Of a stretch of DNA of 64,000 nucleotides, positions 17,575 through 49,799 are shown one piece after another. Where the stretch lies: the NCBI GenBank assembly GCA_026874595.1, contig CM049311.1, positions 32,569,176-32,633,175 on the forward strand. The letters run 5' to 3'. Below the pieces are notes generated by a model. The model worked only from the letters and a program-made list of their open reading frames with translations, was not told the DNA's origin and searched no databases. The translations under genes were made by a program, and so were the position numbers. Numbering within the stretch: position 1 is the first letter of the stretch; each line of letters starts with the position of its first letter. The DNA comes from Sipunculus nudus. Its lineage: Eukaryota; Annelida; Sipuncula; Golfingiida; Sipunculidae.

Positions 17575-17589
17575 TTAAATGCTGGTATT

Positions 17590-17641
<52 letters not shown>

Positions 17642-24607: not shown

Positions 24608-24671
24608 TTGTTGAGATATGAGTACCAAGTAATACCAAAGCGACAGTGAGCAGTCCCAAAGAGGTGATCAT
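24608..24671 (-). pseudogene. signal-peptide exon, type A (copy A2), donor destroyed
   Basis: Same ATG and leader as the 13.9-kb copy up to CATATCTC, then the sequence switches at the duplication junction to AACAAATTGA. The GAA T|GTAAGT donor is absent and the frame stops after two residues. It could only make a very short leader peptide. Confidence 0.75.
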
Positions 24672-27600
24672 GTCGGCAGCAGTTTTGAACTGGTAAGCAA
24701 ATTGAAAGGAACCTCTTCTAAAAACATTTCAAGTAGGAAATTGTTTGTTGGCAACTGCTATATCGTAAATACCGTGTATGTTGATAAGACAGGTGTATGA
24801 AGCACTCAAATTCATTGTTAAGTGGAAAATGATGGAAGCGTTTCTTAATCATACGTGACACAGACGTATCTAACCACACGCGACCCTTTTACCCTTTTAG
24901 ATAAGGTTTGAGCATAAGTGACGTACGGGTGACCATAATGGAAAACTTTTTATTGCCGGTAATAAAATGGAATTCAGGTTCAGGTAGGGCAAACCTTAGG
25001 TATAAGTTTATTGTTGCAGGCTTTTATGGTAAAAAGAGGGTTTTGGAAAGAAAATTATTCAGATTACATCGGTTCTTAATATTGTCCATGTGAGAATACA
25101 TAAATCTTTTTGTACGGGTGGCCACACTTGAACAAGTTTTCATTAAACAAAACTACCATTCCGTTTACGTTTATCGTTAGCAGGCGTATATGGAATAATG
25201 AAAGCTTTTGGAATGAGGTAGTGCTGATGGAAAAGCAATGAGACCATTCTAAAATAATTCTAAAAAGTAAACAATTCAAACATCAATTCAAACAACAGCT
25301 CTTAAACTTAACATAAATACGGACAATTTAAATGATACTTAACTTTCCAATTCCAAATAGGGGCACAAAAATATGAACAAGCATTTGCAAGCAGATAAAA
25401 TTCTCTCATTATTAATTTTTTTTATTTAAAAAAAAACACCTTTTATAATGAATTTTCAAAGAAATATCAGATATGCGTAAGTAATTTGTAACTGTTTAAC
25501 AAGTGAGCCATGGGTCATGACGCTAAGCCGACTGACATGTTGACAATATGTCCATGCATGCACAGGCAACTTATTAAGATAATGTAGGTGGTATCATCTT
25601 TCTTGCCCAGTAGCTAAGGCTCATTAACGGAGCACCGCATATTTGAAGCTGTCAAAAATAGAGATAAAAATACAAAAAAAAATAAAATAAATGCAGGTGG
25701 CGCCAAGAGTCTGCAAGAACTGATGAAACACTCAATAAGGAAAATGCATGCAAAGAATCTTGGTGATCAATGTAATAAATGTTCAGATACTGGAGCTTTT
25801 GTATCAAATTTTTAATTATTCTTGGAGTACTTCTGAGCCCCATAGCTCGGAGGATATGGTAAACAGAGATCTAATTTCAGGTTTTCAAGGAGATTTTTCA
25901 TGGACCTCCCTGGATATCAAGTTAGAAGATTCCAGGTCTAATGGTTACGACTTGTGCCCTGTTAACGGACGACTGCATTTTTGAAGGTATCAAAAAGAGA
26001 TAAAAAAAATACGTAAAAATTGAACATGCATGCAAAGAATCATGGTGAATCAAGTTGTTCAGATACTGGATCTCATGTATCGAATTTTCATTTATTCTGG
26101 GGGGGGGGGGGGGGGATTACTTCTTAACCTCATAGCTCAAAGCTATGGGTAACGGAGACCCAAATTACGGCTACCAAGAACATTTTCAAGCACCTCCCTG
26201 CATGTCAAGTTAGAACATTCTAAGTCCAACGGTTAGGATTTGTGCCTGGTTATCGGACAGAAGGACGGACGACGGACAAAGAGTGATCGCTATGGCTAAG
26301 ATGACTTTCAGGCAGCTGAGATAAAAAAACAAAACAAATTGTTTGTTCACGCGTTCTCCAGAATGAACGTAGGAGGTCAAATTGAGGGCTACGAACGCTT
26401 TAACACTTCGAGTTCCAAGAGGTAAGTAACACATGTTCAGCACGATACATGTCACTTGACAGAGAGCTGTTATTGTAGCCGGATAAATCATTTGTAAATC
26501 ACACGTTCACACATCCTACACCTAGGTGCAAAAACGTGTTCGTAGGACTCAATTCGACCCCCCACATACTTTCTGGAGAAGGCGTTAACACACAAATTTA
26601 TAATCAACACCTGGATCCGCATTAACATATACCCAGCTTTTAACAGACTAACCAAAGGAAAGTTATCAGTTGTTCCTTGGCCAATGGTCCACTGTTCCAC
26701 AAAATTTTATTTAATTCCATAAAAAATACGTGTTGTGTCAACAAAATATTTTGTTGTAGTTTGTACAATAGGTATGGCCGACCACTTGCTAATTTCAGGT
26801 AACCTGTAAGTATATCATATACACTATCGCTCCGTGCTCCCTGGTTCCAACTAGTGGATTAAGATTTAGCCTAATTTATTCAGAAGATATGAAACTGACC
26901 CTTTTATACTTCCATTAATATTCCGTCAATCCATTGTTCCATCTTTACATCATTGACACCATTATCTCACTCGCTGATAGTGAAGGCATAGAAATCCAGC
27001 TCTTTCGGTTAGTTTACCCAAAAAGTATATCTAAAGGTTCCTAATGAATTTAAATGAGTTTTATAGATATTATGGTCATGAGCTAATAAAGAACTGATAA
27101 AACTTTAATTAAGGTGGATTATTAATTTTTATGTATATCTTTTGAAGGATAAGCAGCAGCAAAAAAAGGGCAACTTTGGCTGTATTGAGTTCCGGGTCCT
27201 CTCTCACTACGCACTGATTCATCCCAAAGTTTTAGGAATCGTTCCCTAGTCCACAATTCACAATGTTACAAAATTTCATTCAACTTTTAAAGCCAGTGTG
27301 TGGTCATATTACCAAGCGAAAGAATGAAAAACGCTGATCACATAACGTCAGCTAACTTCTTTACGTGAAAAAAATAATGTGCCATTTAGGAACAAATAAC
27401 CATCTGTTGGGCAGCCGTAGGCTTAAATAATTTAACATTTCATTAATTATCTTTTGTAAGCTGTGAACATCAGGAAGTTTACACTTGACAATTATTTACA
27501 TACATTTACGTAAGGATGTGGTGAAAAGGGCAGATAAATAACACAGAATGAAAAGCACATTTTTTTATCTGAAGAATGCATTCAGGAGAATGTTAGGGGA

Positions 27601-27905
27601 AATACAAGTGATTTTTTTTAGAAAATGTATCAACATTAAGTTGTGTTGAAGGAAACAACCTTTTCAAATTAAATATCAAATTAAAAAAACTTTAAAGAGT
27701 GTCACTTTGAGTCATATTATGTTCAGCTACGTGTTTGCATATGATCTTCTATTCCATCTCCCCCCCCCCCCGCAGGTAAATTTTTCAATGATTTCTTTTG
27801 GCGGAATGATATTTTTTGGAATATGAAATCATGGGCATTTGAATACTAGTATGAGAATTAAAATCTTAACAAACACAGGTAAAACAACGGTGAAATATTA
27901 AATGC

Positions 27906-28316
27906 ATCGGCTTCGGTAACACAAGGGTGGAGCACAGGATTAAAAGCCGGAAGGTCGTGTGTTCGAATCTCAGCCGAGGCGGTGAGATTTTTCACGGTCG
28001 GCCCTCACCCCTCACCTATACCACTCTGCAGGCTTAATGGGAAGGCTGTGCCCCAAAGCCATGTATCACTCTCAAACAAGTGCGTCTTTGGGGGTCCCTC
28101 GGCGTTTTGACCTAGCAATGGGGATGAATATACATCCGCAGGTGCCGTAGACACCGGGCCTGGGTGACACCAGGATACAAAAATATGGGAAGCGAGTGCT
28201 ACCGCCCTGTCACGTATAGTCCCAAATCGAAAGGGTGGTATGCAGATGTACATACTTAGATTAAGAATTAGAAAAGAAAGTATAAAAAATGGAGATGGTT
28301 ACCTCCAGCAAAAAAA
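27906..28316 (+). mobile_element. tRNA-derived SINE (copy 2)
   Basis: Orthologue of 17,160-17,574. It reads CACCTATACCACTCTGC where copies 1 and 3 read CACGGTTAGCACTCCGC, and lacks AACATGAT further on. Confidence 0.85.
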
Positions 28317-28334
28317 GCTAAATGCTGGTATTTA

Positions 28335-28400
<66 letters not shown>

Positions 28401-29340
28401 TATGAATACCTGTTATTTGCAAGCGCATTTCTATACATTCTGACGAGCTTACATCATTTCTTTATGGCATTAAAATAGTGGGCACAAACATGTTAAGTAA
28501 TGTAATGTTATAAAAAAATATCAATACATGCACATGTTTTAAGGAACTGTCAATTGTTACTCTGGCCAACCCTAGATTTCCGATTCCTATGCGCAGTTTG
28601 ATATTAAATTATTAAATGCCCTTCCTATAATAACTCGTTATATTGATTCAAATTCCCCATCATTTGTTATGACTTAAGAGCTCCATGTTTAAGAAAATAA
28701 GTATCTATAAACCCATACGAGCGTGAGCTACATACAACAACCACTCAATTACTAAAGAGTATCGTTGCTTAAGTAAGAATAATCATTACTAAATCCCTCG
28801 CCGGAAATGTTAAAGCTAAATAGACATTTACAATAATATGTGCACTTTCCCTAGTCATTAGTACATTGTAGCTGAAACATTTTTCATGCTAAACTCTCCC
28901 GGCACACGGACTTCAGTTCACACGTATCTCCAGTTCACCTGTTTTATACCTTGTTTTGGTTATGTATGCAAGTAAAAACAGCCCATGTGCGTTTGTTTTA
29001 CCATAACAAGACTATGTAGCCAGAGGTCCAACCTTGCGCATGCACAACATTCAAACAAGGAGAATTGACAGGAAAAAAGAAACATCGGTTAGAGACTTGA
29101 AATATTTTGATTTGTGAAGTCACGCGGTATGGCCACAAGGTGGCGTGCCCGCTATGTTTGTATTTTGCACAACTGATTTTGCCAGGTGAAAGCTTTGTGT
29201 ACAGAAGTATTATTATGATTCTAAGATCAGAATGAAATACTCGCATATACCATAATATTTTAAGGAGAAAAGCGCTATATGTGTACATATTTTGTAATAC
29301 TATGTGTATATTTAACATACAAGATCTCTTTAAATATATA

Positions 29341-29751
29341 AGCCCAATTTACGCTAGAAAATTGTGGCGCGCTAGACCGGGCCAGAAAAATGTGGAGCGG
29401 GCTACATTTTAATTTGCGTTCACAATGCCGGACAAAGTGACCATGTAAAGTGCGCTACCGTGTCAAGTTAGGCCGCATTGCACTTGGCCCGGCCTAGAAT
29501 CTGCATTGTGTTTACACGCAGATAAACACTGCAATCTAGCGCGGTCTAGACTGGATTCCCCCTTGCGGGCATGCCTAAATCCTAGTCACCTGACAGCCGA
29601 GTCTGGCGCGCGCTAGAATCTGGAACCGACTCAAACCGGTGCAAAATGTAGCGCTCCAGACAAAAAATCCTCGACATCTGGCGCATTTGGGGGACTTGGC
29701 GTGCGTAAACGATGTAGAGCGCTTTAAAAAAAAACGTGTGTAAATGGGGCT
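29341..29751. mobile_element. GCGC-rich MITE (copy 2)
   Basis: Orthologue of 18,575-18,989 with the same ends and ATA flanks. Several CG-to-TG or CA differences and small deletions, as expected of CpG decay. Confidence 0.65.
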
Positions 29752-30080
29752 ATAAACTCAAAATTTGATTTAAGACAATCCCAAAGTGTTTTGACAAAAA
29801 ACAATGTGTGCCAGTATGTAAGGACATTCTAAAATTAACCTTTCTTATGCTCTTCCCCCTGTTAACGTTAATGTTTCGGTCGCAGTTTATTTAAATCTTT
29901 TAGAACAAGCTAAAAGAAATGCATAATGCTTTTTTGTTTTCATAGGAAGGTGAAGGACAAAAAATGCATAGGATGTTATATTTTTATAAACAAAATTTAC
30001 TCATAACGAATTTGCTACATATGCTCCTACATTATAAAGCTGATTAGGGCTGTTTTCAGGGAATCCTCATAAATAATATA

Positions 30081-30550
30081 TTAGATTCTTCTAAAATTGA
30101 CATAATCACACGTTTACAGTTAGATTGCATCGCAGAGACGTAACACGTTGTATCACTCAAGGCAATCAATGCGGTCGCACCAGAGAGAGAAGTAAAAGAT
30201 TTAACTATTGGAACTTCACCCAAGAAATTAAAGATATTGTAGCCTTATGGCGACCAAAAAGGCGCTACCAACAACGGACATGTACCACGGAAGCCAAAGA
30301 TTTATTTAATAAAATAAAAAGGTTAGTAGATCAAGCTATCTGGGCGCTAAAACGATATCAATGGTCAGAATATATTAACAGTCTAGGTCAAATGATGAAA
30401 CAAACTGAATTTTGGAAACAATTAAAACATTTCTCTATCTCTAAATATAACCCAAATACAGGACAGGATAAACCCCTAATACACTCCGACGGCACAGTCG
30501 CTGCTACAGCAAAGTGTGGTGCAGATCTATATGAGAATACTCCAAAATAA
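30081..30550 (+). pseudogene. LINE fragment, endonuclease-RT linker (copy 2, longest frame)
   Basis: Best preserved of the three: an open 141-codon frame (30,125-30,550) reads through positions that are stopped or shifted in copies 1 and 3. Motifs include YWNFTQEIKDIVALWRPKRR, FWKQLKHFSISKYNPNTG and HSDGTVAATAK. Downstream frames are again broken, so this remains a relic of a Jockey-type element. Confidence 0.75.
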
Positions 30551-31444
30551 ATACGAAAAACCCCGACACACCCTGACTTCAAGAATGATTTTTTAAACAC
30601 AACGAAACAAATAATTGATGAAAATAAAGCACTATTTAATGTAGAAAACCCGACCACGGAAGCCAGTGACGTCAACTTAGCAGTAAGACCCATGGTAATT
30701 CTACAGGTAAAGCGGGCCCTTGCCTTATCCAAAGGCAAATCATTTGTTCCTTCTTTTTAAAAAGTCATCAGTCACAGCCTACTGCCGTTTACCACGACAT
30801 CAATGCAATAGGATGAATGGCCCTTGAAGAGCATTTCCCCGTATCACTTTTCACGACTCAAGTAGGCTAAGCAGTCCAATAAAAAGCCTACACCTCAAAT
30901 GGATTTCGAAAGGTCTCACTGTTTCACAGAATTTTCACTGTGATGTCAAACGGTCAAACCTGCAGAGGCAGACTCTCCATGGTAGCGTAACTGCTCCATG
31001 TATTTGGTCATCAGTTGATAGGTTCAGGTTGGATAACTCACCTAAATTATTTTTATGCTATTCCTTTTCTAAAGTGCGTGTGTATGTGCATGCGGTGATG
31101 GCTTCACATTTCGTCTTAATATTCATTTATTCTGCAAATCACAGACTATAGGTAACCATAACCCAATATTCGGAAGATTTCAACACGCATTCTCTGGACG
31201 TTAAGTCAGATTGTACGTTAATGATATTTGTCCTGTTAAGGGATAGCCGGACGAGGGAGGGACAAACAGCTGCGATTTTGCTAAGCTGATTATTAATATG
31301 CTAAGCTTAATCATATAATACGCTATGAAATTGAGAGAAATCTTAAATATTATATACAAGGTGTCAATATCCAGAGAAACCCTCTAAAAAAACTGAGAAA
31401 AAAATCGGCACCCGAAACACACCGCAGCCAACAATTCTTAATAA

Positions 31445-33122
31445 GCAGTCCCAGAAAAGCAAAGAGCGCCCCTGGACCTTCGTAAAAGGCATGGACCCAG
31501 GATGAACCGTGCATGTATTTGAAAACCCAGCATGGAGACTTGCATGGAGCCTACAGCAATGCAAGACTGCAGCCTTTAACTTAACAAAGGAAGCAGAGCG
31601 TGGTTTCTAGAAAGATTCGATATGTAGACTATTTAACATTAAGCCTGATAGGGACAATTGGAAAAATACCACTATTATTCCTCAACTGCGTAGATGAATC
31701 TCCTAGCAAAAGTATGAGAAAATATGGAATATTGGCCAAAAGAAAGTGAGATTAAACCAGTGATGGATTATGATTATATTTCAAATGATACCATATTTGC
31801 TAGGTACTTGATCGATATGGGATTGATGTAACTTGGTTAAAGCCTCTAGAATGCAAACGCTGGATGTGAAAAAAGAAACTCTATGAAAGTTATAAACAGG
31901 CATTGTTGGCCTGGAAATTGATTACTGAACTAAAAATAAGCTAAGGGTACATTTATTGTTATCTTTACCTGAAGAAGAAAATATTGGTATCAGAGAGAAA
32001 GTAAGTCCTACATGAATTGTAAATTGAAGAGTCAAACAACGTTTTAAAAATTTTCATAGCTTATCTAGCCAGGAAATTAGGAAAATATGTTTAAGCTGAT
32101 AGTGTGATAAAATTTAAGAATTTTACAGATAATTAGAGAATGCCTGGGCAGTCCATAGAAGAATCTATAATAAACTTTTAGGTACAACAATATCATGAAA
32201 CTGAATATTTTTTTACCTCCATGGTATTTTGGCTTTCAGGATATTGAAAAGAATCAAAATCAGCAAAGCTGAGCGGATGCTGGCGTTTACAGAAGTAGAC
32301 TATCAGAAGAAAGAACTTTTGTTTGACCAGTCCAAGAAATATTTACGATAAAAGCCAAAGAATATCAAGGAGAGGAGCTGATAGTGGAAATTCGGGTGCG
32401 ACCATGTGCTAGCATGGTGTGGGGCAAAACTTCTTACACGCTATGATCTGTGGACAAAATGAGAATTAAGAGAAAAGCAGGAGCTCCATTTTTTTTTAAA
32501 TTAGGAGGTGTTGAGAAATAAAAAAAAATCTTCTAATACCATATTCCTGGTGAGATTGCAGGAAAGAATGTTACTGTGGCCCTGGATCTGGTGGATTCTG
32601 ATATCCTTCTTCTGTTATCCAAGGAAGCAAAGAAAACAGCCAGGGTAACAGCTTCCAGAAACAGGCATTGAGATACTTTGGTGCAGTACACACGAGGCGA
32701 CAAATTGTCTTCATACGTGATAGTTTCAGTGGCTCTCAACTTGTCTTTGGTTAAAAAAAAACAATTTTGCATAACGTCATGGCTAAGCAAACACCAGCAC
32801 TTGCAGGAATTACCACAAATGTAACTGTAACAAAATATCTCAGAAGGTTGTATGCTGCATGGAAAGCCGTTAGGTATTCCGACAGCGATGGAGTATTTCG
32901 GCGATCAGCTGTAAAATTAGAGGCTCTGAAGAAAGACCGGATACAGCAGAACCCAACTGATGTAGATATTGGTGATAGTAACAAGAAGTCACGGACACAG
33001 GTAGCTAAAGAATTACCTCAACCACAAAAAAAAAATTACCAAGCAGAGCTTTAGTAAAGGAAGAACCTGCTAAAATATTACCCTTTTTAAAATATTTTAT
33101 ATCAACATCAGACCCTGTGTAA
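31445..33122 (+). pseudogene. LTR-type retroelement relic (copy 2, less deleted)
   Basis: Same gag/protease-like relic as in copies 1 and 3, with LDLVDSDILLLLSKEA. It keeps about 158 bp (near 32,796-32,953) missing from the other two; across it the frame is open and reads TKYLRRLYAAWKAVRYSDSD. Confidence 0.55.
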
Positions 33123-35089
33123 TAACTAGTCTAAATATTCTAGTAAACTAGATGTGATGGTACTCAATTAGGGCCCCGAGTTCCTCAAAATGGCAGCCCT
33201 GTGGCCATATTGGATGTCAGATTGGTCTGAAAGTTTTCACCAAAAACAATGTAAAATTCATGACATTATCTGAACAGTTATTGCGAAAGGATTTTAACAT
33301 AATTGCCCAGCAGCCATATTGGATTTAACAGAAGTGTAAAATTTGAAAGTGACATCTCCTAATTGTTGCAATATTCTATTTAATTTTCGCAAAAGAAAAT
33401 CATCGTTTGCACTGTGGCGTTCATATTGGTTTTTGGATGGGTATGAAATTCGATAGGGCTGTTGCAACCACTATTGTAATAACGTTCACTATTGTAATAA
33501 TTATTACAATACTGGTTGGTAAGGGCCAGTTTTTGCCAACCATTATTGTAATAACGGTCACTATTGTAATAATTATTACAATAGTGGTTGCAAATGCAAC
33601 CACTATTGTAATAATTTTTTATTAAAATAGTGGTTGATGTTGAAGGCGGAAAATTTTTCTAGATTTGTCGAGATTCTTCCAAACAAATGACATTTAAAAA
33701 AAAACCCACACAATTCAGACTCTGTCTCCCCAAAAACGCATCAGTTTGTATTTCATATGTTATTACACTAGTGAACTTTATTACATTAGTGACCATGTCG
33801 AGAAACCACTATTGTAATAACGGTCACTAATGTAATAAAAAATAGCCGCCACTTCTATCTCACCACTGAAGAAATAATTTCCCTCATATTTCATCTTGAA
33901 ATGCCTCCATCTTTTTTATATATGTGTTCAAGTGTAAAATGCTGGGGAATTATAGTATGACAAATGTTGTAATCCATCCGTACTTAATTAATTATACTAT
34001 AACGAAATTTATTACAATAGTGAACGTCATTACAATAGTGACCGTGGCGAGAAACCACTATTGTAATAACGGTCACTAATGTAATAAAAAATAGCTGCCA
34101 GTTTTACATCACCACTGAAGAAATAATTTTTTCATAATTTAACGAATTTAACGAAATTCATAAAAGTAAAAGGTTAGGGGTCTTTATTATTCAGAATACA
34201 TTCACAATCCTCTCATACGTGTTTATTTATGCCACAAACGACATTTATTACAAGAGTAACAATTATTGCAGTATTAAAGGCAAATAGTTCGTCCCATTTT
34301 TTAAAGTTTAAATTGGAGTTCTTTCATAATTTTGTGATCTGGGATTTTCATGTTTTATTTACCACGCTGAGCCAACTTTATCTTGCTATCTATATCAGTA
34401 TAATAAAACACTGGATTAACGCAGTGTTATCTTATCCTCATTATTCATTATAAGCGAGTAGTTAAAAAATTGCAGTTAATGGAAAGTACCTTCATTGTGA
34501 GTGAAATGCAATTCTAAAAGGTAATTTAATGTTTAACTAAAATATGTCCTGGGAACTTCCTCACATGGCAGTAGTGAATGCGAGACATGCGTATTATGTT
34601 GTAATATATTGTAAGTGAATGTAAATATATTGAAAGTAATTTAGAAATCTTTTATATAATCAGGGAATAAACGAAAAATCCAGCCAAACCTAATGGACTC
34701 GGGAGACTCAACAGATTCGCCTGATATGGAGGAAAAATTAAACCTCATAAGATATACAATATATAAATCTATCTCGCTGGGAAATTTCCGTGTCAATTTC
34801 TGAAGTTAATCAGGACAGATGTTATGGGACCTGTAATTAGATTCTTAAGAGGATCGAATCCACTGCGACATGAAAAAAAGAGAGAAATGTGTTCCTTAGC
34901 TAAGAAAATAGATTGAGCAGTCGTAGAATTAAAACAAACTAAGTCAACCAAGAATATACAAGGGAAAAGTTTATCTGTGGAACAGATCTAGTATCCCCCC
35001 TGCCTGTTGTTGATATACCTGGAAAAAATTGTGAACACCTATATGAAATTTAAGATGGGTCAATGTCAACCACCAAGTTTACTGTGAGT

Positions 35090-35470
35090 TTGAAAAACTG
35101 CATCAACATCATCCATATTCGAACGTGACCTAGCCCCCATGAAGAAGGTAAATGCTGCAAATTTTGTGATTGTGCTTCATTTTTTTCGAATTATTGCGTA
35201 ACATTTATTTAATCATCATTGCCTCTGTGACCTTGAAAAATGTTTCAAGGTCATCAATAGTTGAACTCGAATTAGCCCTTGATAAGGCAAATAAATGCTG
35301 AAGTTTGGTGGCTGTAACTGAAACTCTTTTTAGAGTTTTTGCGTTAAAATCATTTCAGCATTATCGCCCCTGTGACCTTGAAAAATGTGTCAAGGTCATC
35401 CATGTCTTGGCCCTTGATAAGATGCATCAATGCTGCATGTTTGGTGGCTGTACTTCATATTCTTTTTTAG
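35090..35470. repeat. tandem repeat, period about 145 bp, inside the copy 2 transposon
   Basis: TGTGACCTTGAAAAATGTNTCAAGGTCATC-type blocks recur near 35,224 and 35,371, with a weaker earlier unit. It is followed by GGACGGACGGCACGACG, a motif common in dispersed bivalve repeats. Confidence 0.7.
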
Positions 35471-35937
35471 TTTTTTTTTGTTAACATCTTATCTGTGACG
35501 GACGGACGGCACGACGAACGGACGCTGACCATTTCGATGGAGGTGGCAGGGGATAATATTAACCCAATCATAGGGGGCGTAGCCAAGTAGGCCCACAGGG
35601 CCACGCCCCAACCCCCGGTCCTCCCTTTGGTACTACCAGTTATCCCGGGATTTCATAGAATCATAAAATTCTTGTGCTTGCATAACACTGATGTCAGTTC
35701 ACATGCAGATACAATGATCTACATCCTTAGGATGAAATATCGGAGTTTGCCTGGAGACATCCAAGAAAACTTTAACCCCTTAACTTATAGGACGGCTGAG
35801 GTGTCTGTGAAACATGTACGCATTGCAAATGCAGTAATTAATATTTTATTTATCGATAACGCTAGACAGCATATATATTAAAATATATTTTTTTAATTTA
35901 TTTATCTTGCACAATAGTTCTAATTGTAATAAAAATA

Positions 35938-35983
<46 letters not shown>

Positions 35984-37009
35984 ATGCTACCCTGCTGGGA
36001 TTTGTACCAGCAAAAGTCCCTAATTGCGATCTGTACTGGTACAATTGCCAAGCGTACCAGATTGCCATTTGTACCATGATATAGATATATATATACCAAC
36101 ACATACCTCAAACGAAGTTAAACAAAACAAGGTTGAAACCAACCTGGCGGCAATTTTCACATTTACATTTTTACAATGTCTGTCATACGGGAGTGAGAAA
36201 GTAACAAATAAAAGTAATTTCTTGAAAAATGAATATAATATAAATATGATCATATAATAATTGTTAGGATAAATAAAGACGTATCTGTGTTCACATGGTG
36301 ACATTCTAAATGACATTAGATACAACTCGAGTGCACTGGATGTTTGGATGTCTATATATACATACTAGTTTGAAGCAACATATGTTGGTCATTTAAAATC
36401 AACCGCGCATTTATCAGCAGCTTGTCTCACAGTATTACGTGATCTCATAAAGCACTGGACCATTGTCAACCATGAAAACACTTTGGTTTCCAGGTGTTTA
36501 TATCGAGCCGCTTATAAACACCCGAGTGTTTTTACTGCTCATGTTTTAAGGGCTGATGAATTAATGAATAAACGGAAGGGCATTATAAAACCTATTATAC
36601 CTCGAATCCCCGATAAATTATTTAACAGCAAATATATATGGTCAAACTAAGTACTGACCCCTGACAATAATGCTTGAAATACGTTTATGTACATTAAATA
36701 TTTGTTTAAAGTTCATTCAAACAAATTTGAAACTATTACAATGTATTGAGATTTATTTTGACAGAATTATACCACTTTAAAGGGACCTTTAAACATGTTG
36801 GTAAAAGCACGTCTTGTGTCTATCTGTAGACACCAGTGTTTTCTGCATAAACACAGACAATTTAAACATGTGGCTATTCGAATATAACACTGGTGTATTG
36901 TACAAAACATTAGACGTGTCTCCATTTTTTACAGTGTACTATGTACGGGATTCGCTATGACCATTATTGTGTTATATGTTTAATTACGTTTTTGTTTGAT
37001 TAATTTATA

Positions 37010-37790
37010 CCTTTAAAAGGGCACGGTAGGTGGCGTCACCTGTCTTTTTGATGAGAAAACTCTCCAAAATAGATGTACATGCCAAATTGCAGCAAAATTG
37101 AACCACTCCTAGGATATGAGCAATTTATACCTAAAACATATGAATGTATGGACGCCACACGAAAACAATTGCAGATGGCGCCACCAGTCTTGAATATAAG
37201 ATATTCAGGTCAATGAACATGAACGATTTCATTCCAATCTGGCCATTAGTTTTTATACTTTTAATGCTTACAGTACTGCAAAGTGGCATTGATGGGATAT
37301 TAACGGCACGAAAACAAGAAAAGGACAAAAGATGGTGCCAATAATCTTCCACAGAAGACAAAACTATCCAGAATCTTAGGTCAGCTTGATTTTTGGACCA
37401 TTCCATGCATCACGTATCGAGATATTTAAGATTTTATGTGATTGTCGCCATATATGGCAATACTCAAGGTCAAAGCCACTCTCATAGGAAAGGTCTTGAC
37501 CCCATTTTAAATATACATCATCCCATAACCCATATCTATGTAAGTATATAATATCATAGAAATCTGTCTATTTGTTTTTGACTTATAATCCTTACAGTAC
37601 TGTCAAGTGGCACTGATAGGGATATTATACGGCACGAAAACAAGAAAAGGATAATAGGTGGCGCCACAAGTTTCCGGTATATGACCACACTATCCAAGAT
37701 CTTCGGTCAACATGATTTTTGGAGCAATCCATGCAAGATGTCTTGAGATATTTAAGAATGAGTGTAATTTTCCCATTTTGTACCAAGCGA
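37010..37790. repeat. tandem repeat, period about 326 bp, inside the copy 2 transposon
   Basis: GGCACGAAAACAAGAAAAGG occurs at 37,305 and 37,631, with matching flanks (GGCGCCAC, TTTTTGGA-CA-TCCATGCA). A third, more diverged unit begins near 37,020. Confidence 0.75.
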
Positions 37791-37865
37791 CCCGTGACAT
37801 GACGTCAAAATATTGGTGACTAAGGTATTCATGCAGTTGCGGCAAATTTTATGAGTGGAGCAATG

Positions 37866-37866
<1 letters not shown>

Positions 37867-37919
<53 letters not shown>

Positions 37920-37941
37920 AAAATATATATATATATATATA
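37867..37941. repeat. (CT)n plus (TA)n compound microsatellite
   Basis: A (CT)n run of about 34 bp passes directly into (TA)n. Confidence 0.95.
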
Positions 37942-38139
37942 TGAGAAAATAAATAAATTCTATAGACTAACTAACTTTTTAATCCGAGCTTTCAAGGCGC
38001 ACAGGAATCTTCATCACGTTGTGAGAGGGAACGGGTAGAGATGTGTTTTTACATATCGAGTAATAATGTATGGAGTCCATGGTGCAAGAAATAGTTTGCA
38101 CAAATATGAAATATAAGTGGAATTGCAAGATATAAGATA

Positions 38140-39010
38140 AGGAAAAATTATTTCTTCAGTGGTGAGATAAACGTGGCGGCTAATTTCTATTACAATAGTG
38201 ACCGTTATTACAATATTGGTTGCACGACACGGTCACTATTGTAATGACGTTCACTATTGTAATAAATTTCGTTATAGGTATAATTAATTAAGTTAGAATG
38301 TATTACAATTTTTAGAATACTATAATTCCCCAGCATATCACACTTGAACAAAAATATAAAAAGATGGTGGCGTTTCAAGACATACTATGAAGGAAATTAT
38401 TTCTTCATTGGTGAGGTAACAGTGCTGGCTATTTTTATAACAATAGTGACCGTTATTACAGTAGTGGTTGCTCGACACGGTCACTATTGTAATAACATTC
38501 ACTATTGTAATAAATTTCGTTATAGGTATAATTAATGAAGTAAAGATGGATTACAACGTTTGGAATACTATAATTCCGCAACATTTTACACTTGAACACA
38601 AATATAAAAAGATGGTGGCATTTCAAGATGAACTACGAGGGAAATTATTTCATCAGTGGTGAGATAACAGTGGCGGTTATTTTTTATTACAATAGTGACC
38701 GTTATTACAATAGTGGTTGCTCGACACGGTCACTATTGTAATAACGTTCACTATTGTGATAAATTTCGTAATTGCTATAATTAATGATGTAAGAGTGGAT
38801 TATAAAGTTTGGAATACTATAATTCCGCAGCATTTTACACTTTAACACAAATATAAAAAGATGGTGGCATTTCAAGATGAACTACGATAGCATTATTTCT
38901 TCAGTGGTGAAATAAAGGTGGCCGCTAGTTTTTATTACAATAGTGACCGTTATTACAATAGTGGTTTCTCGACACGGTCACTAATGTAATAAGGTTCACT
39001 ATTGTAATAA
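38140..39010. repeat. tandem array of about 240-bp units in the right arm
   Basis: Each unit contains TTATTTCTTCAGTGGTGAGA, paired CACTATTGTAATAA palindromes, ATAATTAATGAAGTA and a TTGAACACAAATATAAAAAG segment. About four units, with point differences. Confidence 0.85.
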
Positions 39011-40154
39011 CATATGAAATACAAACGGATGCGTTTTTGGGGAGACAGAGTCTGAATTGTGTGGCTTTTTTTTCGGAAATGTCATTTGTTTGGAAGAATC
39101 TCGACAAATCTAGGAAAATTTTCCGCCTTCAACATCAACCACTATTGTAATAAAAAATTATTACAATAGTGGTTGCATTTGCAACCACTATTGTAATAAT
39201 TATTACAATAGTGACCGTTATTACAATAGTGGTTGGCAAAAACTGGCCCTTCCCAACCACTATTGTAATAATTATTACAATAGTGAACGTTATTACAAAA
39301 GTGGTTGCAACATAGGGCTCACAGGAACCAAAACATATCTGTGAAATTGAGAAAGCATACTTTCATTGAGATATTTCGCACGAAAGAAGATCGCCGATTC
39401 TGCTCTGGCGGTCTTATTGCAATTCAGACAGATCTATTCGATAGGTCTGGAGCCCTTATAGCCAACACAGTCCAAGGGCCATCCCCCCTCCGAAAAACTT
39501 TTCTCGATCCCTCTAGATTTCTTCGTTGAGGTCTCTTTTACTCATTCCCAGGTGTTTCCAAACATCTAAACGGAGCAAACAAGCTAAAAAATCGACCCAG
39601 AATTGTGACTATCCCCTGAATTTAGAATTACGTATACATTTTCTGGTTCCAAAGTTAATGTAGCCCCGAAAATGCTACCACTTGGTACTGTTGAAACACT
39701 AAGCCCAAGACACCAGCCTCGCAGAGTGTCCCTGCCGGGCAAATGATTGTTTCATAGAGGGCAACACACGGCCCGTGTGCACACGGTTACACACACTTAC
39801 ACAAATGCACACACAGCTATATATATCTTTGTGTGTGCGTGGGAGTGGATGGGCGAGTTTGAATGGGTGTGTCAAAGTCGCTAATATTGCCTGTCATTGC
39901 GATATGTATGATCAAGGACAAATAAATTTTGTTTTGTGTACGTAAAAAAAGTAAGTGTCTTATGACAAAATAGCTTTGTAAAAAAATATTATCCGTTCAA
40001 TTATGTATGATCTCCACTTAAATGAAATATTATGCAAAGCATTTGAAATAAAAACTGTGATGTCGAAACTGCATTATCTGTCAGTTAATTGTATACAATG
40101 CCTTAGAATGGTTGCAAATGATTTTCATGTAAAAGTATTGATAGAGGTACTTAC

Positions 40155-40218
40155 AGACACATATATGACTACAGGTGAACACTAAGGCGATAGTGAGCAG
40201 TCCTTTAGAAGTGCTCAT
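40155..40218 (-). CDS. signal-peptide first exon, type B (copy B2)
   Basis: Identical in coding sequence to the 23.4-kb copy, with the same perfect GTAAGT donor in phase 1. Confidence 0.68.
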
Positions 40219-41422
40219 GTCGACCGAAGAGCTGAACTAATGAGCAAAATGAAGGAATCTCTTCTTAAAACAAAGCAAGGAGGAAGTTGGTTGATAAAGT
40301 TCTTGAGAACAATAAATATATCAGTTAATCAGACAGGTACTTAGAATACTTAATGTTCTAAATTCTTGGAAATGATGTAGGCAAGTTCCCACACCTAGAG
40401 TAAGTTATGCGGTATGCGGCTGTCCACTTTTGAAAGTAATTTATTGTCTGCAAACATTTCAGATCGGTGTAATCCGTTTTAGGCGTGTGGCATTTAGGCA
40501 ATCATTAGATTTATTATTGCTGTTCAAAGAGTTCAATGAGCAGTATATAATGTAAAATATTGTTGTTCAGCCCTTGGTTACTGATCTCGAGATTGCGATT
40601 CAGCTGTAAATGTGTCACACCCCATCGCCGGCAGACTGTTTCTTCGATATTTCGTGCATAAATCATATATTTGAACAATGAAGTATCAGGATATAAACAA
40701 ATAAGATTTACTTTGAAATGACTTAATTTTAATGTTCCGAAACGTGATTGCCTTGCCGTATAAAGTAACTAAGATGACGGATGTATGGGGTAACAGTTTG
40801 TTCTCTCTTTGTTAAAAGCAGATATTTTAAAATGTAGGATTTCTCTTATGGCCTTCTATGAAGCTTACATGTAAAAGTTTTGAGTGGTGTACTTGGCTGG
40901 ACTACTTAAGTGCGTGCTTGACTGTTATCAAACTGATATATAAGACAACAAACAATATAAATGAAGTTTATTCCATTTTTTTAATTAATCTGATAAGACA
41001 AGTACCAGTACCAGGTTGTTACGAGTTCAAAAGCACTTGGTTTGACTTGTCACATGGAATTATATCGCAGGTGTTACCAAAAGCTACAAATAAAATTGAT
41101 TCCCTTTATTCTTTTTTTTAATCATTATTTTACTTGTTTTATACAGAATCCTCTATAGATACGTATGCATGTTCTCTTCCGTTTATTCTCTGTTATGTAC
41201 GTGTATATATTGAAAGGATGATTGGATTATCATAATTAAGAATAATTCATTATAATTATTCACTTCATATCGGGTTTTAATGTTTTTGTCATTATGTATC
41301 ACCAACTTATACCCAAAGTTATAAAACAAGAAAATAGAAGAATTCATGGGTTTAGTATTTAACATATAATGAGGAAAAGACTGTTTAGATATGACTACAA
41401 ACAATTTGTTCATTTGTTCAAT

Positions 41423-41486
41423 TTGTTGAGATATGAGTACCAAGTAATACCAAAGCGACAGTGAGCAGTCCCAAAGAGGTGATCAT
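41423..41486 (-). pseudogene. signal-peptide exon, type A (copy A3), donor destroyed
   Basis: Same truncated structure as copy A2: the second duplication junction replaces the donor by AACAAATTGA. Confidence 0.75.
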
Positions 41487-44400
41487 GTCGGCAGCAGTTT
41501 TGAACTGGTAAGCAAATTGAAAGGAACCTCTTCTAAAAACATTTCAAGTAGGAAATTGTTTGTTGGCAACTGCTATATCGTAAATACCGTGTATGTTGAT
41601 AAGACAGGTGTATGAAGCACTCAAATTCATTGTTAAGTGGAAAATGATGGAAGCGTTTCTTAATCATACGTGACACAGACGTATCTAACCACACGCGACC
41701 CTTTTACCCTTTTAGATAAGGTTTGAGCATAAGTGACGTACGGGTGACCAAAATGGAAAACTTTTTATTGCCGGTAATAAAATGGAATTCAGGTTCAGGT
41801 AGGGCAAACCTTAGGTATAAGTTTATTGTTGCAGGCTTTTATGGTAAAAAGAGGGTTTTGGAAAGAAAATTATTCAGATTACATCGGTTCTTAATATTGT
41901 CCATGTGAGAATACATAAATCTTTTTGTACGGGTGGCCACACTTGAACAAGTTTTCATTAAACAAAACTACCATTCCGTTTACGTTTATCGTTAGCAGGC
42001 GTATATGGAATAATGAAAGCTTTTGGAATGAGGTAGTGCTGATGGAAAAGCAATGAGACCATTCTAAAATAATTCTAAAAAGTAAACAATTCAAACATCA
42101 ATTCAAACAACAGCTCTTAAACTTAACATAAATACGGACAATTTAAATGATACTTAACTTTCCAATTCCAAAAAGGGGCACAAAAATATGAACAAGCATT
42201 TGCAAGCAGATAAAATTCTCTCATTATTAATTTTTTTTATTTAAAAAAAAACACCTTTTATAATGAATTTTCAAAGAAATATCAGATATGCGTAAGTAAT
42301 TTGTAACTGTTTAACAAGTGAGCCATGGGTCATGACGCTAAGCCGACTGACATGTTGACAATATGTCCATGCATGCACAGGCAACTTATTAAGATAATGT
42401 AGGTGGTATCATCTTTCTTGCCCAGTAGCTAAGGCTCATTAACGGAGCACCGCATATTTGAAGCTGTCAAAAATAGAGATAAAAATACAAAAAAAAAAAT
42501 AAAATAAATGCAGGTGGCGCCAAGAGTCTGCAAGAACTGATGAAACACTCAATAAGGAAAATGCATGCAAAGAATCTTGGTGATCAATGTAATAAATGTT
42601 CAGATACTGGAGCTTTTGTATCAAATTTTTAATTATTCTGGGAGTACTTCTGAGCCCCATAGCTCGGAGGATATGGTAAACAGAGATCTAATTTCAGGTT
42701 TTCAAGGAGATTTTTCATGGACCTCCCTGGATATAAAGTTAGAAGATTCCAGGTCTAATGGTTACGACTTGTGCCCTGTTAACGGACGACTGCATTTTTG
42801 AAGGTATCAAAAACAGATAAAAAAAAAAAACGTAAAAATTGAACATGCATGCAAAGAATCATGGTGAATCAAGTTGTTCAGATACTGGATCTCATGTATC
42901 GAATTTTCATTTATTCTGGGGGGGGGGGGATTACTTCTTAACCTCATAGCTCAAAGCTATGGGTAACGGAGACCCAAATTACGGCTACCAAGAACATTTT
43001 CAAGCACCTCCCTGCATGTCAAGTTAGAACATTCTAAGTCCAACGGTTAGGATTTGTGCCTGGTTATCGGACAGAAGGACGGACGACGGACAAAGAGTGA
43101 TCGCTATGGCTAAGATGACTTTCAGGCAGCTGAGATAAAAAAACAAAACAAATTGTTTGTTCACGCGTTCTCCAGAATGAACGTAGGAGGTCAAATTGAG
43201 GGCTACGAACGCTTTAACACTTCGAGTTCCAACAGGTAAGTAACACATGTTCAGCACGATACATGTCACTTGACAGAGAGCTGTTATTGTAGCCGGATAA
43301 ATCATCTGTAAATCACACGTTCACACATCCTACACCTAGGTGCAAAAACGTGTTCGTAGGACTCAATTCGACCCCCCACATACTTTCTGGAGAAGGCGTT
43401 AACACACAAATTTATAATCGACACCTGGATCCGCATTAACATATATCCAGCTTTTAACAGATTAACCAAAGAAAAGTTATCAGTTGTTCCTTGGCCAATG
43501 GTCCACTGTTCCACAAAATTTTATTTAATTCCATAAAAAATACATGTTGTGTCAACAAAATATTTAGTTGTAGTTTGTACAATAGGTATGGCCGACCACT
43601 TGCTGATTTCAGGTAACCTGTAAGTATATCATATACACTATCGCTCCGTGCTCCCTGGTTCCAACTAGTGGATTAAGATTTAGCTTAATTTATTCAGAAG
43701 ATATGAAACTGACCCTTTTATACTTCCATTAATATTCCGTCAATCCATTGTTCCATCTTTACATCATTGACACCATTATCTCACTCGCTGATAGTGAAGG
43801 CATAGAAATCCAGCTCTTTCGGTTAGTTTACCCAAAAAGTATATCTAAAGGTTCCTAATGAATTTAAATGAGTTTTATAGATATTATGGTCTTGAGCTAA
43901 TAAAGAACTGATAAAACTTTAATTTAGGTGGATTATTAATTTTTATGTATATCTTTTGAAGGATAAGCAGCAGCAAAAAAAGGGCAACTTTGGCTGTATT
44001 GAGTTCCGGGTCCTCTCTCACTACGCACTGATTCATCCCAAAGTTTTAGGAATCGTTCCCTAGTCCACAATTCACAATGTTACAAAATTTCATTCAACTT
44101 TTAAAGCCAGTGTGTGGTCATATTACCAAGCAAAAGAATGAAAAACGCTGATCACATAACGTCAGCTAACTTCTTTACGTGAAAAAAATAATGTGTCATT
44201 TAGGAACAAATAACCATCTGTTGGGCAGCTGTAGGCGTAAATAATTTAACATTTCATTAATTATCTTTTGTAAGCTGTGAACATCAGGAAGTTTACACTT
44301 GACAATTATTTACATACATTTACGTAAGGATGTGGCGAAAAGGGCAGATAAATAACATAGAATGAAAAGCACATTTTTATCTGAAGAATGCATTCAGGAG

Positions 44401-44726
44401 AATGTTAGGGGAAATACAAGTGATTTTTTTAGAAAATGTATCAACATTAAGTTGTGTTGAAGGAAACAACCTTTTCAAATTAAATATCAAATTAAAAAAA
44501 CTTTAAAGAGTGTCACTTTGAGTCATATTATGTTCACCTACGTGTTTGCATATGATCTTCTATTCCATCTCCCCCCCCCCTGGGCAGGTAAATTTTTCAA
44601 TGATTTCTTTTGGCGGAATGATATTTTTTATATTTATGGGAATATGAAATCATGGGCATTTGAATACTAGTATGAGAATTAAAATCTTAACAAACACAGG
44701 TAAAACAACGGTGAAATATTAAATGC

Positions 44727-45142
44727 ATCGGCTTCTGTAACACAAGGGTGGAGCACAGGATTAAAAGCCGGAAGGTCGTGTGTTCGAATCTCAGCCGAGG
44801 CGGTGAGATTTTTCACGGTCGGCCCTCACCCCTCACGGTTAGCACTCCGCAGGCTTAATGGGAAGGCTGTGCCCCAAAGCCATATATCACTCACAAACAA
44901 GTGCGTCTTACGGGTCCCTCGGCGTTTTGACCTAGCAATGGGGATGATTATACATCCACAGGTGCGGTAGACACCGGGCCTGGGTGACACCAGGATACAA
45001 AAATAACATGATAGGAAGCGAGTGCTACCGCCCTGTCACGTATAGTCCCGAATCGAAATGGTGGTATGCAGATGTACATACTTAGATTAAGAATTAGAAA
45101 AGAAAGTATAAAAAATGGGATGGTCACCTCCAGCAAAAAAAG
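44727..45142 (+). mobile_element. tRNA-derived SINE (copy 3)
   Basis: Orthologue of the copy 1 SINE, nearly identical. Followed by the longest of the three (TA)n tracts (45,160-45,225). Confidence 0.85.
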
Positions 45143-45157
45143 TTAAATGCTGGTATT

Positions 45158-45225
<68 letters not shown>

Positions 45226-46158
45226 TATGAATACCTGTTATTTGCAAGCGCATTTCTATACAAGTCTGACGAGCTTACATCATTTCTTTATGGCATTAAA
45301 ATAGAGGGCACAAACATGTTAAGTAATGTAATGTTTTGAAAAGATAACAATACATGCACATGTTTTAAGGAACTGTCAATTGTTATTCTGGCCAACCCTA
45401 GATTTCCGATTCCTATGCGCAGTTTGATATTAAATTATTAAATGCCCTTCCTATAATAACTCCTTATTGATTCAAATTCCCCATCATTTGTTATGACTTA
45501 AGAGCTCCATGTTTAAGAAAGTAAGTATCTATAAACCCATACGAGCGTGAGCTACATACAACAACTACTCAATTACTAAAGAGTATCGTTGCTTAAGCAA
45601 GAATAATCATTACTAAATCCCCCGCCGGAAATGTTAAAGCTACATAGACATTTACAATAATATGTGCACTTTCCCTAGTCATTAGTACATTGTAGCTGAA
45701 ACATTTTTATGCTAAACTCTCCCGGCACACGGACTTCATTTCCCACGCATCTCCAGTTCACCTGTTTTATACGTTGTTTTGGTTATGTATGCGAGTAAAA
45801 ACAGCCCATGTGCGTTTGTTTACCATAACAAGACTATATGGCCAGAGGTCATACCGTGCGCATGCACAACATTCAAACAAGGAGAATTGACAGGAAAAAA
45901 GAAACATCGGTTAGACTTGAAATATTTTGATTTGTGAAGTCACGAGGTATGGCCACAAGGTGGTGTGCCCGCTATGTCTGTATTTTGTACGACTGGTTTC
46001 GCCAGGTGAAAGCTTTGTGTCCAGAAGTGTAATTATGATTCTAAGATCAGAATGAAATACTCGCATATATCATAATATTTCAAGGAGAAAAGCGCTATAT
46101 GTGTACATATTTTGTAATACTATGTGTATATTTAACATACAAGATCTCTTTAAATATA

Positions 46159-46573
46159 AGCCCAATTTACGCTAGAAAATTGTGGCGCGCTAGACCGGGC
46201 CAGAAAAATGTGGAGCGGGCTACATTTTAATTTGCGTTCACACTGTGTCGGACAAAGTGACCATGTAAAGCGCGCTACCGTGTCAAGATAGGCCGCATTG
46301 CACTTGGCACGGCCTAGAATCTGCATTTTGTTTACACGCAGATAAACAGTGCAATCTAGCGCGGTCTAGACTGGATTCCCCCTTGCGGGCATGGCTAAAA
46401 CCTAGTCACCTGACAGCCGAGTCTGGCGCGCGCTAGCATCTGGAACCAACTTAAACCGGTGGTCAAAATGTAGCGCGCTCCAGACCAAAAATCCTCGAAA
46501 TCTGGCGCGTTTGGGGGACTTGGCGCGCGTAAACGATGTAGAGCGCTTCAAAAAAACGTGTGTAAATGGGGCT
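46159..46573. mobile_element. GCGC-rich MITE (copy 3)
   Basis: Orthologue of the copy 1 element with the same termini and ATA flanks. Confidence 0.65.
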
Positions 46574-46899
46574 ATAAACTCAAAATTTGATTTAAGACAA
46601 TCCCAAAGTGTTTTGATAAAAAACAATTTGCCTTTAGTATGTAAGGACATTCTAAAATTAACCTTTCTTATGCTCTTCCCCCTGTTAACGTTAATGTTTC
46701 GGTCGCAGTTTATTTAAATCTTTTAGAACAAGCTAAAAGAAATGCACAATGCTTTTTTGGTTTCATAGGAAGGTGAAGGACAAAAATGCATAGGATGTTA
46801 TATTTTTATAAACAAAATTACTCATAACGAATTTGCTACATATGCTCTTACATTATTAAGCTGATTAGGGTTGTTTTCAGGGAATCCTCATAAATAATA

Positions 46900-47387
46900 T
46901 ATTAGATTCTTCTAAAATTGACATAATCACACGTTTACAGTTAGATTGCATCACAAAAGAGGTAACACGTTGTATCACTCAGGCCATCAATGCGGTCGCA
47001 CCAGAGAGAGAAGTAAAAAATTAAAAAAAAAAAAAACTATTGGAACTTCACCCAAGAAATAAAAGATATTGTAGCCTTATGGCGACCAAAAAGGCGCTAC
47101 CAGCAACGGACATGTACCACGGAAGCCAAAGATTTATTTAATAGAATAAAAAGGTTAGTTGATCAAGCTATCTAGGCGCTAAAACGATATCAATGGTCAG
47201 AATATATTAACAGTCTAGGTCAAATGATGAAACAAACTCAGGTGAATTTTGGAAACAATTCAAACATTTCTCTATCTCTAAATATAACCCAAATACAGGA
47301 CAGGCTAAACCCCTAATAAACTCTGACGGCACAGTTGCTGCTACAGCAAAGTGTCGTGCATGTCTATTTGCGAATACTCCAAAATAA
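46900..47387 (+). pseudogene. LINE fragment, endonuclease-RT linker (copy 3)
   Basis: Carries the same A-run insertion, in-frame TAG and indel as copy 1, supporting a closer relationship of copies 1 and 3. Confidence 0.72.
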
Positions 47388-48271
47388 ATACGAAAAACCC
47401 CGACACACCCTAACTTCAAGAATGCTTCCTAAACACAACGAAACAAATAACTGATGAAAATAAAGCACTATTTAATGTAGAAAACCCGACCACGGAAGAC
47501 AGTGACGACAACTTAGCAGTAAGACCCATGGTAATTCTACAGGTAAAGCGGGCCCTTGCCTTATCCAAAGGCAAATCATTTGTTCCTTCTTTTTAAAAAG
47601 TCATCAGTCGCAGCCTACTGCTGTTTACCACGACATCAATGCAATAGGATGAATGGCCCTTGAAGAGCATTTCCCCGTATCACTTTTCACGACTCAAGTA
47701 GGCTAATAAAAAGCCTACACCTCAGTTGGATTTCGAAAGGTCTCACTGTTTCACAGAATTTTCACTGTGATGTCAAACGGTCAAACCTGCAGAGGCAGAC
47801 TCTCCATGGTGGCGTAACTGCTCCTTGTATTTGGTCATCAGTTAATAGGTTTTGGTTGGATAACTCACCTATATTATTTTTATGCTATTCCTTTTTTAAA
47901 GTGCGTGTGTATGTGCATGCGGTGATGGCGTCACATTTCGTCTTAATATTCATTTATCCTGCAAATCACAGACTATAGGTAACCATAACACAATATCCGG
48001 AAGATTTCAGCACGCATTCTCTGGAGGTTAAGTCAGATTGTACATTAATGATACTTGTCCTGCTTAGGGATAACCGGACGAGGGAGGGACAAACAGCTGC
48101 GATTTTGCTAAGCTGATTATTAATATGCTTAGCTAAATCATATAATATGCTATGAAATTGAGAGAAATCTTAAATATTATATACGAGGTGTCAATATCCA
48201 GAGAAACCCTATAAAAAACTGAGAAAAAAATCGGCACCCGAAACACACCGGAGCCAACAATTCTTAATAAG

Positions 48272-49799
48272 CAGTCTCAGAAAAGCAAAGAGCGCCCCTG
48301 GACCTTCGTAAAAGGCATGGACTCAGGATGAACCGTGCATGTATTTGAAAACCCAGCATGGAGACTTGCATGGAGACTGCAGCAATGCAAGATTGCAGCC
48401 TTTAACTTAACAAAGGAAGCAAAGCGTGGTTTCGAGAAAGATTCGATATGTAGACTATTTAACATTAAGCCTGATAGGGACAATTGGAAAAATACCACTA
48501 TTATTCCTCAACTGCGTAGATGAATCTCCTAGCAAAAGTATGAGAAAATATGGAATATTGGCCAAAACAAAGTGAGATTAAACCAGTGAAGGATTATGAC
48601 TATATTTCAAATGATACCATATTTGCTAGGTTCTTGATCGATATGTGATTGATGTAACTTGGTTAAAGCCTAGAGAATGCAAACGCTGGATGTGAAAAAA
48701 GAAACCCTGTGAAAGTTATAAACAGGTATTGTTGGCCTGGAAATTGATTACTGAACTAAAAATAAGCTAAGGGTACATTTATTGTTATCTCTACCTGAAG
48801 AAGAAAATATTGGTATCAGAGAGAAAGTAAGTCCTACATGAATTGTAAATTGAAGAGTCAAACAACGTTTTAAAAATTTTCATAGCTTATCTAGCCAGGA
48901 AATTAGGAAAATATGTTTAAGCTGATAGTGTGATAAAATTTAAGAATTTTAAAGATAATTAGAGAATGCCTGGGCAGTCCATAGAAGAATCTATAATAAA
49001 CTTTTAGGTACAACAATATCATGAAACTGAATATTTTTTTACCTCCATGGTATTTTGGCTTTCAGGATATTGAAAAGAATGAAAATCAGCAAAGCTGAGC
49101 GGATGCTGGCATTTACAGAAGTAGACTATCAGAAGAAAGAACTTTTGTTTGACCAGTCCAAGAAATATTTACGATAAAAGCCAAAGAATATCAAGGAGAG
49201 GAGCTGATAGTGGAAATTCGGGTGCGACCATGTGCTAGCATGGTGTGGGGCAAAACTTCTTACACGCTATGATCTGTGGACAAAATGAGAATTAAGAGAA
49301 AAGCAGGAGCTCCATTTTTTTTTAAATTAGGAGGTGTTGAGAAATAAAAAAAAAATCTTCTAATACCATATTCCTGGTGAGATTGCAGGTGAGAATTTTA
49401 CTGTGGCCCTGGATCTGGTGGATTCTGATATCCTTCTTCTGTTATCCATGGAAGCAAATAAAACAGCCAGGGTAACAGCTTCCAGAAACAGGCATTGAGG
49501 TACTTTGGTGCAGTACACACGAGTCGACAAATTGTCTTCATACGTGATAGTTTCAGTGGCTCTCAACTTGTCTTTGGTTGAAAAAACAATTTTGCATAAC
49601 GTCATGGCTAAGCAAACACCCAACTGATGTAGATATTGGTGATAGTGACAAGAAGTCACGGACACAAGCAGCTAAATTACCTCTAATTACCTCAACCACA
49701 AAAAAAACAAAAATTACCAAGCAGAGCTTTAGTAAAGGAAGATCCTCCTAAAATATTACCCTTTTTAAAATATTTTATATCAACATCAGACCCTGTGTA
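48272..49799 (+). pseudogene. LTR-type retroelement relic (copy 3)
   Basis: Orthologue of the copy 1 relic, with the same deletion of about 158 bp and the same broken frames. Confidence 0.55.

Follow-up and report, generated by a model that had tools for sequence, protein, structure and literature searches.

A foldback transposon family of Sipunculus nudus with TG..CA ends and a probable 6-bp target duplication

Foldback transposons have been assigned mostly to the Mutator superfamily, with exceptions such as Galileo, which belongs to the P superfamily (PMC4079207). Target duplications of 6 bp are made by IS3EU and GingerRoot elements (PMC10045372, PMC12730594); complete IS3EU elements always have TA..TA ends, and GingerRoot elements mostly do, with TG..CA occurring occasionally (PMC10045372). 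Here and below, published elements are characterised from the compared passages of the papers cited. We analysed a stretch of 64,000 nucleotides of the Sipunculus nudus genome (assembly GCA_026874595.1, contig CM049311.1, positions 32,569,176 to 32,633,175, forward strand), referred to as the window. It contains one copy of a foldback family that we call family A. This family is real and well bounded and has no recognised transposase; its architecture is of a known type, and its ends and target duplication are unusual. From the comparison of copies, we assign a joint probability of about 0.85 to the conclusion that the insertion is a transposon, that its ends are at 33460 and 39312, and that it duplicated six bases of its target. 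The assignment to a superfamily is not included in this figure.

Three units of approximately 10.75 kb each follow one another head to tail in the window, and unit 2 alone is interrupted by the family-A element:

13868-24612, forward strand: tandem unit 1, empty (pairwise comparison)
24613-41427, forward strand: tandem unit 2, filled (pairwise comparison)
41428-52233, forward strand: tandem unit 3, empty (pairwise comparison)
22546-22553, forward strand: empty site of unit 1, ATAGGGCT once
50131-50138, forward strand: empty site of unit 3, ATAGGGCT once

The sequence ATAGGGCT flanks the insertion at 33453-33460 and 39312-39319, and the surrounding flanks match the empty units. The insertion and its two empty sites are real. 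Together with the inverted arms of the element, they bear out the proposal of an earlier sequence-only reading of the window that a large foldback transposon fills copy 2 only. The same reading called the empty sites in copies 1 and 3 orthologous; they are tandem paralogues instead. With the element removed, the units are 98.1% (1 and 2), 98.7% (1 and 3) and 97.4% (2 and 3) identical. The pattern of similarity changes along the units. Units 1 and 3 are closest in the middle, the last approximately 2 kb of unit 1 are nearer to unit 2, and near the start the best agreement is between units 2 and 3. This pattern points to exchange between the units.

The ends of the element were determined by comparison with other copies in the genome (1.43 Gb, 153 contigs):

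33460..39312, no strand assigned: family-A foldback transposon without a recognised transposase, 5853 bp, 5'-TGTTGCAACCACT...AGTGGTTGCAACA-3', ends from 17 paired copies
33454..33459, forward strand: left copy of the target duplication, TAGGGC (copy comparison)
39313..39318, forward strand: right copy of the target duplication, TAGGGC (copy comparison)

Quoted at greater length, the outer sequence of the element reads TGTTGCAACC...GGTTGCAACA. The first terminus query began inside of the outermost T, and 40 of 683 candidates were scored. In all 30 ends of L001-L030, two of them with a flank in common, a T precedes GTTGCAAC as read into the element; the left end of a further locus, L050, is an exception with G at this position. 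Paired copies, in which both ends could be compared, numbered 14 at first, 16 with the addition of L055/L058 and L056, and 17 with L075. Directly outside T..A, an exact 6-bp duplication is present in 11 of the 17, a 6-bp duplication with one mismatch in three (L036, L047, L075), a 5-bp duplication in two (L040, L044), and none in one (L050). The left outer base of the supposed 8-mer is T in 16 of 17 pairs and the right one A in all 17 (15 and 16 of 16 without L075). The two outer positions match between the flanks in 9 and 5 of 17 pairs (8 and 5 of 16 without L075), whereas the inner six match in 12 to 15 of 16; both outer bases agree in only 4 of 16, the window copy among these. A duplication of 8 bp would require its first and last bases to match as often as the inner ones. 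Fewer do, which argues for a 6-bp duplication, TAGGGC. Because the other copies show T..A to be inside the element, the true ends of family A, TG..CA, lie at either side one base outside those of the sequence-only reading, which had considered both ends fixed to the base. The target in the window happens to have A and T in these two positions, so this one insertion and its empty site cannot separate 8 bp from 6 bp: a single filled site plus its empty site can mislead on duplication length.

Independent evidence for a 6-bp duplication comes from a sibling, family B, one copy of which has inserted into a family-A element (L043:3880-6807, 2928 bp, starting with TGTTACGTCCCCTATTGTAATAACG..., with 255-bp arms that are 89.8% alike). 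The host sequence under this insertion is known from the family-A arm unit (window 38612 onward), and the six bases TGGCAT are duplicated on both sides. Since the interrupted sequence is known, the nested copy proves a 6-bp duplication independently of the family-A pairs. Nine paired family-B copies have an exact 6-bp duplication in six cases, 5 bp in two and none in one. At least 40 family-B ends are 93-100% identical to the query (40 of 389 candidates scored). Four ends, including the query, are 100% identical over 191 bases, which suggests recent movement or duplication.

These results bear on two alternative histories of the locus. The duplication may be 8 bp long, with element ends at GTTGCAAC and a transposase from one of the superfamilies that duplicate 8 bp, as was claimed from the window alone. 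The window copy and three more of the 16 pairs do have eight identical bases. However, 12 of the 16 do not, the outer bases often disagree between the flanks although nearly every copy has T on the left and A on the right, and family B duplicates six bases of known sequence. An 8-bp duplication survives only if most copies mutated at just two outer positions, and we regard it as highly improbable. The sequence-only reading had named copies with other duplication lengths as a refutation; such copies exist, and they count against the 8-bp claim and not against the transposon. Alternatively, the ancestral unit was filled, and precise excision removed the element from units 1 and 3. These two units are the most alike overall (169 sites shared, compared with 105 between units 1 and 2 and 37 between units 2 and 3), so that a single loss in their ancestor takes no more steps than a single gain in unit 2. 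However, both empty sites are perfect, with neither a footprint nor a second copy of the duplication, and exact restoration is the rarer outcome of excision for most cut-and-paste elements, although exceptions exist. Loss from units 1 and 3 is therefore improbable, and we prefer insertion into unit 2 with a 6-bp duplication.

The genome contains the family-A terminus 208 times at up to one mismatch (100 forward and 108 reverse), whereas the reversed control sequence gave no matches. The first 100 of the 208 termini listed include 23 inverted neighbour pairs less than 20 kb apart, with spans between 171 bp and 17.3 kb and a median of 6.55 kb, and two neighbour pairs oriented otherwise. Among the longest pairs are C8:79585459-79602766, C11:1880677-1897818, C11:48682634-48695974 and C3:69279758-69290102. 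Defined ends, a target duplication and many copies fit a non-autonomous DNA transposon, and no transposase was recognised in the copies examined. The shortest copy (L075, 171 bp) consists of little beyond the two outer ends, with the duplication ATGCCC/ATGTCC containing one mismatch. If it moved as such, approximately 85 bp per end would be enough for movement. In the locus L033, the left family-A end occurs twice, 422 bp apart and with the same outside flank (L033:1001 and 1423; C5:69874766 and 69875188), apparently as the result of a local duplication. The target count was restricted to exact duplications of families A and B, leaving out inexact pairs. In 17 of 17 cases the two central bases are each G or C, and in 12 of 17 they are GC. 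In an earlier target set of 18, six of them single left ends, the counts were 18 of 18 and 14 of 18, respectively.

The earlier description of a little-described, non-autonomous family is correct in that family A is apparently non-autonomous and present in many copies, and that a search of one paper library for its terminal letters returned only papers on unrelated subjects, as judged by title. The comparison with superfamilies that make 8-bp duplications was the wrong one. No report of a foldback element that combines TG..CA ends with a duplication of 6 bp and with targets centred on GC was found in the literature searched, with Repbase and Dfam outside the search.

The element has the architecture of a foldback transposon, in which long inverted arms composed of internal repeats flank a middle part:

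33460..34129, forward strand: left inverted arm, 91.7% alike to 39312-38642, with 14-bp words
38145..39312, reverse strand: right inverted arm, longer than the left, with 248-bp tandem units
33460..33636, forward strand: terminal palindromic zone of CACTATTGTAATAA words, outer 177 bases (single-stranded DNA folding)
34137..38144, no strand assigned: interior of about 4 kb, common in part or whole to 18 of 20 fetched loci, without a clear coding signal

The 14-bp word CACTATTGTAATAA starts at 42 positions inside the element with at most three mismatches, 40 of them with at most one; the rest of the window has no occurrence with at most two mismatches and nine with three. The words are arranged as direct pairs at 18-bp spacing and as inverted, partly abutting pairs. 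The right arm contains 3.5 copies of the 248-bp unit at 38145-39010, so that arms built of palindromic words and tandem units of about 240 bp, as described previously, are present. The number of arm units differs among copies of family A. As single-stranded DNA, the terminal palindromic zone has a predicted folding energy of -47.8 kcal/mol, compared with -16.3 +/- 2.9 kcal/mol for 200 shuffled sequences (z -10.9).

The words are conserved. Across 69 arm units, which come from 20 of 21 sequences, the majority base is present at 97.4% of word positions and 90.7% elsewhere (p 2.6e-6); for A/T positions alone, the values are 97.5% and 92.3% (p 2.4e-4). Because they are better conserved than the spacers, the words are most likely binding sites of the transposase. 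A precedent for this role is Galileo, whose THAP domain binds within the long-arm repeats (PMC3688188). We infer a cut-and-paste mechanism, in which a DDE enzyme supplied in trans would cut the element at its 5'-TG..CA-3' ends and paste it, by joining with a 6-bp or sometimes 5-bp stagger, into targets with a mostly GC centre. The element would have entered tandem unit 2 at TAGGGC, and units 1 and 3 would have stayed empty. The arrays of 14-bp words in the arms would serve as putative transposase-binding sites, and may grow and shrink through unequal exchange or slipped repair. Whether arm arrays act as transposase sites can be tested cleanly on the arms of family A.

The search for the enzyme covered the interior, other copies and the genome. 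Ten interior open reading frames (ORFs) of the window (60-114 amino acids) had no Pfam match above the cut-off and two weak matches (E 0.18 and 0.43). Across copies, 36 interior ORFs of at least 45 amino acids had synonymous/non-synonymous ratios of 0.09-0.78 in a test that is weak for short exons. A clearly coding interior was rejected based on the sub-threshold Pfam matches and the codon test, in which one ORF of 64 amino acids stands out. Inspection by eye of ORFs of at least 90 amino acids in 20 fetched loci (L031-L050) revealed no DNA transposase; the same scan detected a Gypsy-like retrotransposon nested in L031/L032, where it lengthens a 12-kb family-A copy, and a retrotransposon-like ORF of 120 amino acids in L046. 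No transposase was seen by eye among ORFs of at least 80 amino acids in two longer family-B copies. The IS3 profile NF033516 gave 75 matches from 74 scored of 4299 candidates in the genome. Among the matches listed, five exceeded the cut-off outright and a sixth only with its neighbours. The five are strong bacterial-type IS3 transposases on small contigs (C106, C110, C118, C128 and C135), which probably entered the assembly from bacterial contaminants or symbionts. The two best chromosome matches (L073 at C8:76869700 and L074 at C8:4778150), examined over 601 bases each, are in integrase-like ORFs of 405 and 478 amino acids, which by eye look like Gypsy-type integrases but could also be Ginger1. 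None of the 23 paired family-A spans contains a match among those listed, as compared by eye, and no family-A transposase of the IS3EU/GingerRoot lineage was found among the 74 scored of 4299 candidates. Spread via viral contigs was considered and rejected: four such contigs have one 16-base match each, which we took as chance.

Several observations weigh against our account of family A. No transposase was tied to the family-A ends in the copies examined, a set that includes few of the longest ones (9-17 kb between paired ends). Five of the 20 fetched loci (L042, L043, L046, L048 and L049) hold incomplete copies, which makes the transposase search partial. The interior ORF of 64 amino acids (34796-34987, reverse strand) has the highest ratio, 0.78, and its second codon position is the least variable. 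L050 and one family-B pair (C3) have no duplication, and the 5-bp duplications AGTTA (L044) and TAAGG (family B), which are outside the target count, lack a G/C centre. Repeat homogenisation could partly account for the conservation of the words.

A duplication of six rather than eight bases changes which enzyme probably moves family A. The TG..CA ends and the 6-bp duplication, with 5-bp variants in both families, fit IS3EU/GingerRoot best among the groups compared, as a best guess; such ends speak against strict IS3EU and are allowed for GingerRoot. A transposase of this kind, by resemblance rather than membership, is a tentative assignment. We put it at slightly less than even odds because hAT and Mutator-type lineages with duplications of about 6 bp are on record. 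Lineages of hAT with 5, 6 and 7 bp exist beside the usual 8 bp (PMC12730594), and IS256/MuDR as a group makes 4-10 bp (PMC10045372), so that length alone accommodates both. Family A has neither the usual 8 bp of hAT nor the 8-10 bp of Tetris-like Mutator elements. P, Merlin and Zisupton were rejected for their duplications of about 8 bp (PMC12730594, PMC10045372, PMC3706591). Dada, with 6-7 bp, fits by length, but it has no terminal inverted repeats and targets small-RNA genes, whereas family A has long terminal inverted repeats. Polinton elements make 6-bp duplications, but have AG..CT ends and a large coding interior, and were rejected because family A has neither.

The transposase may instead be Ginger-like, of a short-duplication hAT or Mutator type, or an enzyme of an undescribed integrase type whose duplications are 5-6 bp long and whose targets are centred on GC; in our judgement, this comes close to an even chance. 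The TA..TA ends of IS3EU and most GingerRoot elements, the 5-bp variants and the hAT and Mutator-type lineages mentioned above are in its favour, as are the two integrase ORFs that could be Ginger1 as well as Gypsy, and TGTTG conforms to the pattern of Ginger and Gypsy ends, TGTNR (PMC2836005). However, Ginger1 makes 4-bp CCGG/CCGT duplications and Ginger2 4- to 5-bp ones at the AT-rich target RTATAY (PMC2836005), compared with mostly 6 bp and a G/C centre here, and on these grounds we rejected both. It is conceivable, although unlikely, that families A and B form a foldback clan of an undescribed integrase-like transposase with TG..CA ends, a 5-6-bp stagger, GC-centred targets and long arrays of a single 14-bp word. 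Judging from the compared passages, they would be the first foldbacks linked to the integrase-like branch instead of Mutator or P. A clan of foldbacks that joins TG..CA ends with a 6-bp duplication would point to an additional origin of the architecture in an integrase-like lineage.

The window contains a second foldback element at 6803-8702 (1900 bp, TACGGTGGCTGATTT..AAATCAGCCACCGTA), with TACGG..CCGTA ends, a 6-bp duplication CATAAT, and arms that are 89.9% alike and contain tandem repeats of approximately 22 bp. These ends and the duplication length fit the signature of fungal IS3EU, TAYGG..CCRTA with 6 bp (PMC12730594), so that elements of the IS3EU kind seem to be present in this genome. 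An ORF at 9170-9814 on the reverse strand encodes two thrombospondin type 1 domains (Pfam). An 876-bp inverted-repeat element at 59194-60069 (CACAGGCA..TGCCTGTG, arms 95% alike) has an 8-bp duplication, ATCTCATG, and is presumably hAT-like, judging from its end pattern.

The TU foldback elements of sea urchins resemble family A in having arms of short tandem words, and differ in their 8-bp duplication. Tetris of Drosophila virilis is similar in being a non-autonomous foldback with a non-coding middle for which no autonomous partner was found, and its long terminal inverted repeats contain internal tandem repeats of approximately 220 bp in variable number, as do the arms of family A (PMC4079207). 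However, Tetris has 8-10-bp duplications and was assigned to Mutator by its authors (PMC4079207), whereas family A has 6 bp, TG..CA ends and 248-bp units organised around the 14-bp word. Galileo shares long, internally repetitive terminal inverted repeats, which in its case hold THAP binding sites (PMC3688188), but it belongs to the P superfamily, for which duplications of approximately 8 bp are given (PMC3706591), and keeps transposase remnants. Ginger1 and Ginger2 have TGTNR ends, as does family A, and differ in their 4- to 5-bp duplications and targets (PMC2836005). IS3EU and GingerRoot differ in the TA..TA ends of complete IS3EU elements, and foldback arms are unmentioned in the passages compared; they share with family A the 6-bp duplication and, in occasional GingerRoot elements, the TG..CA ends.

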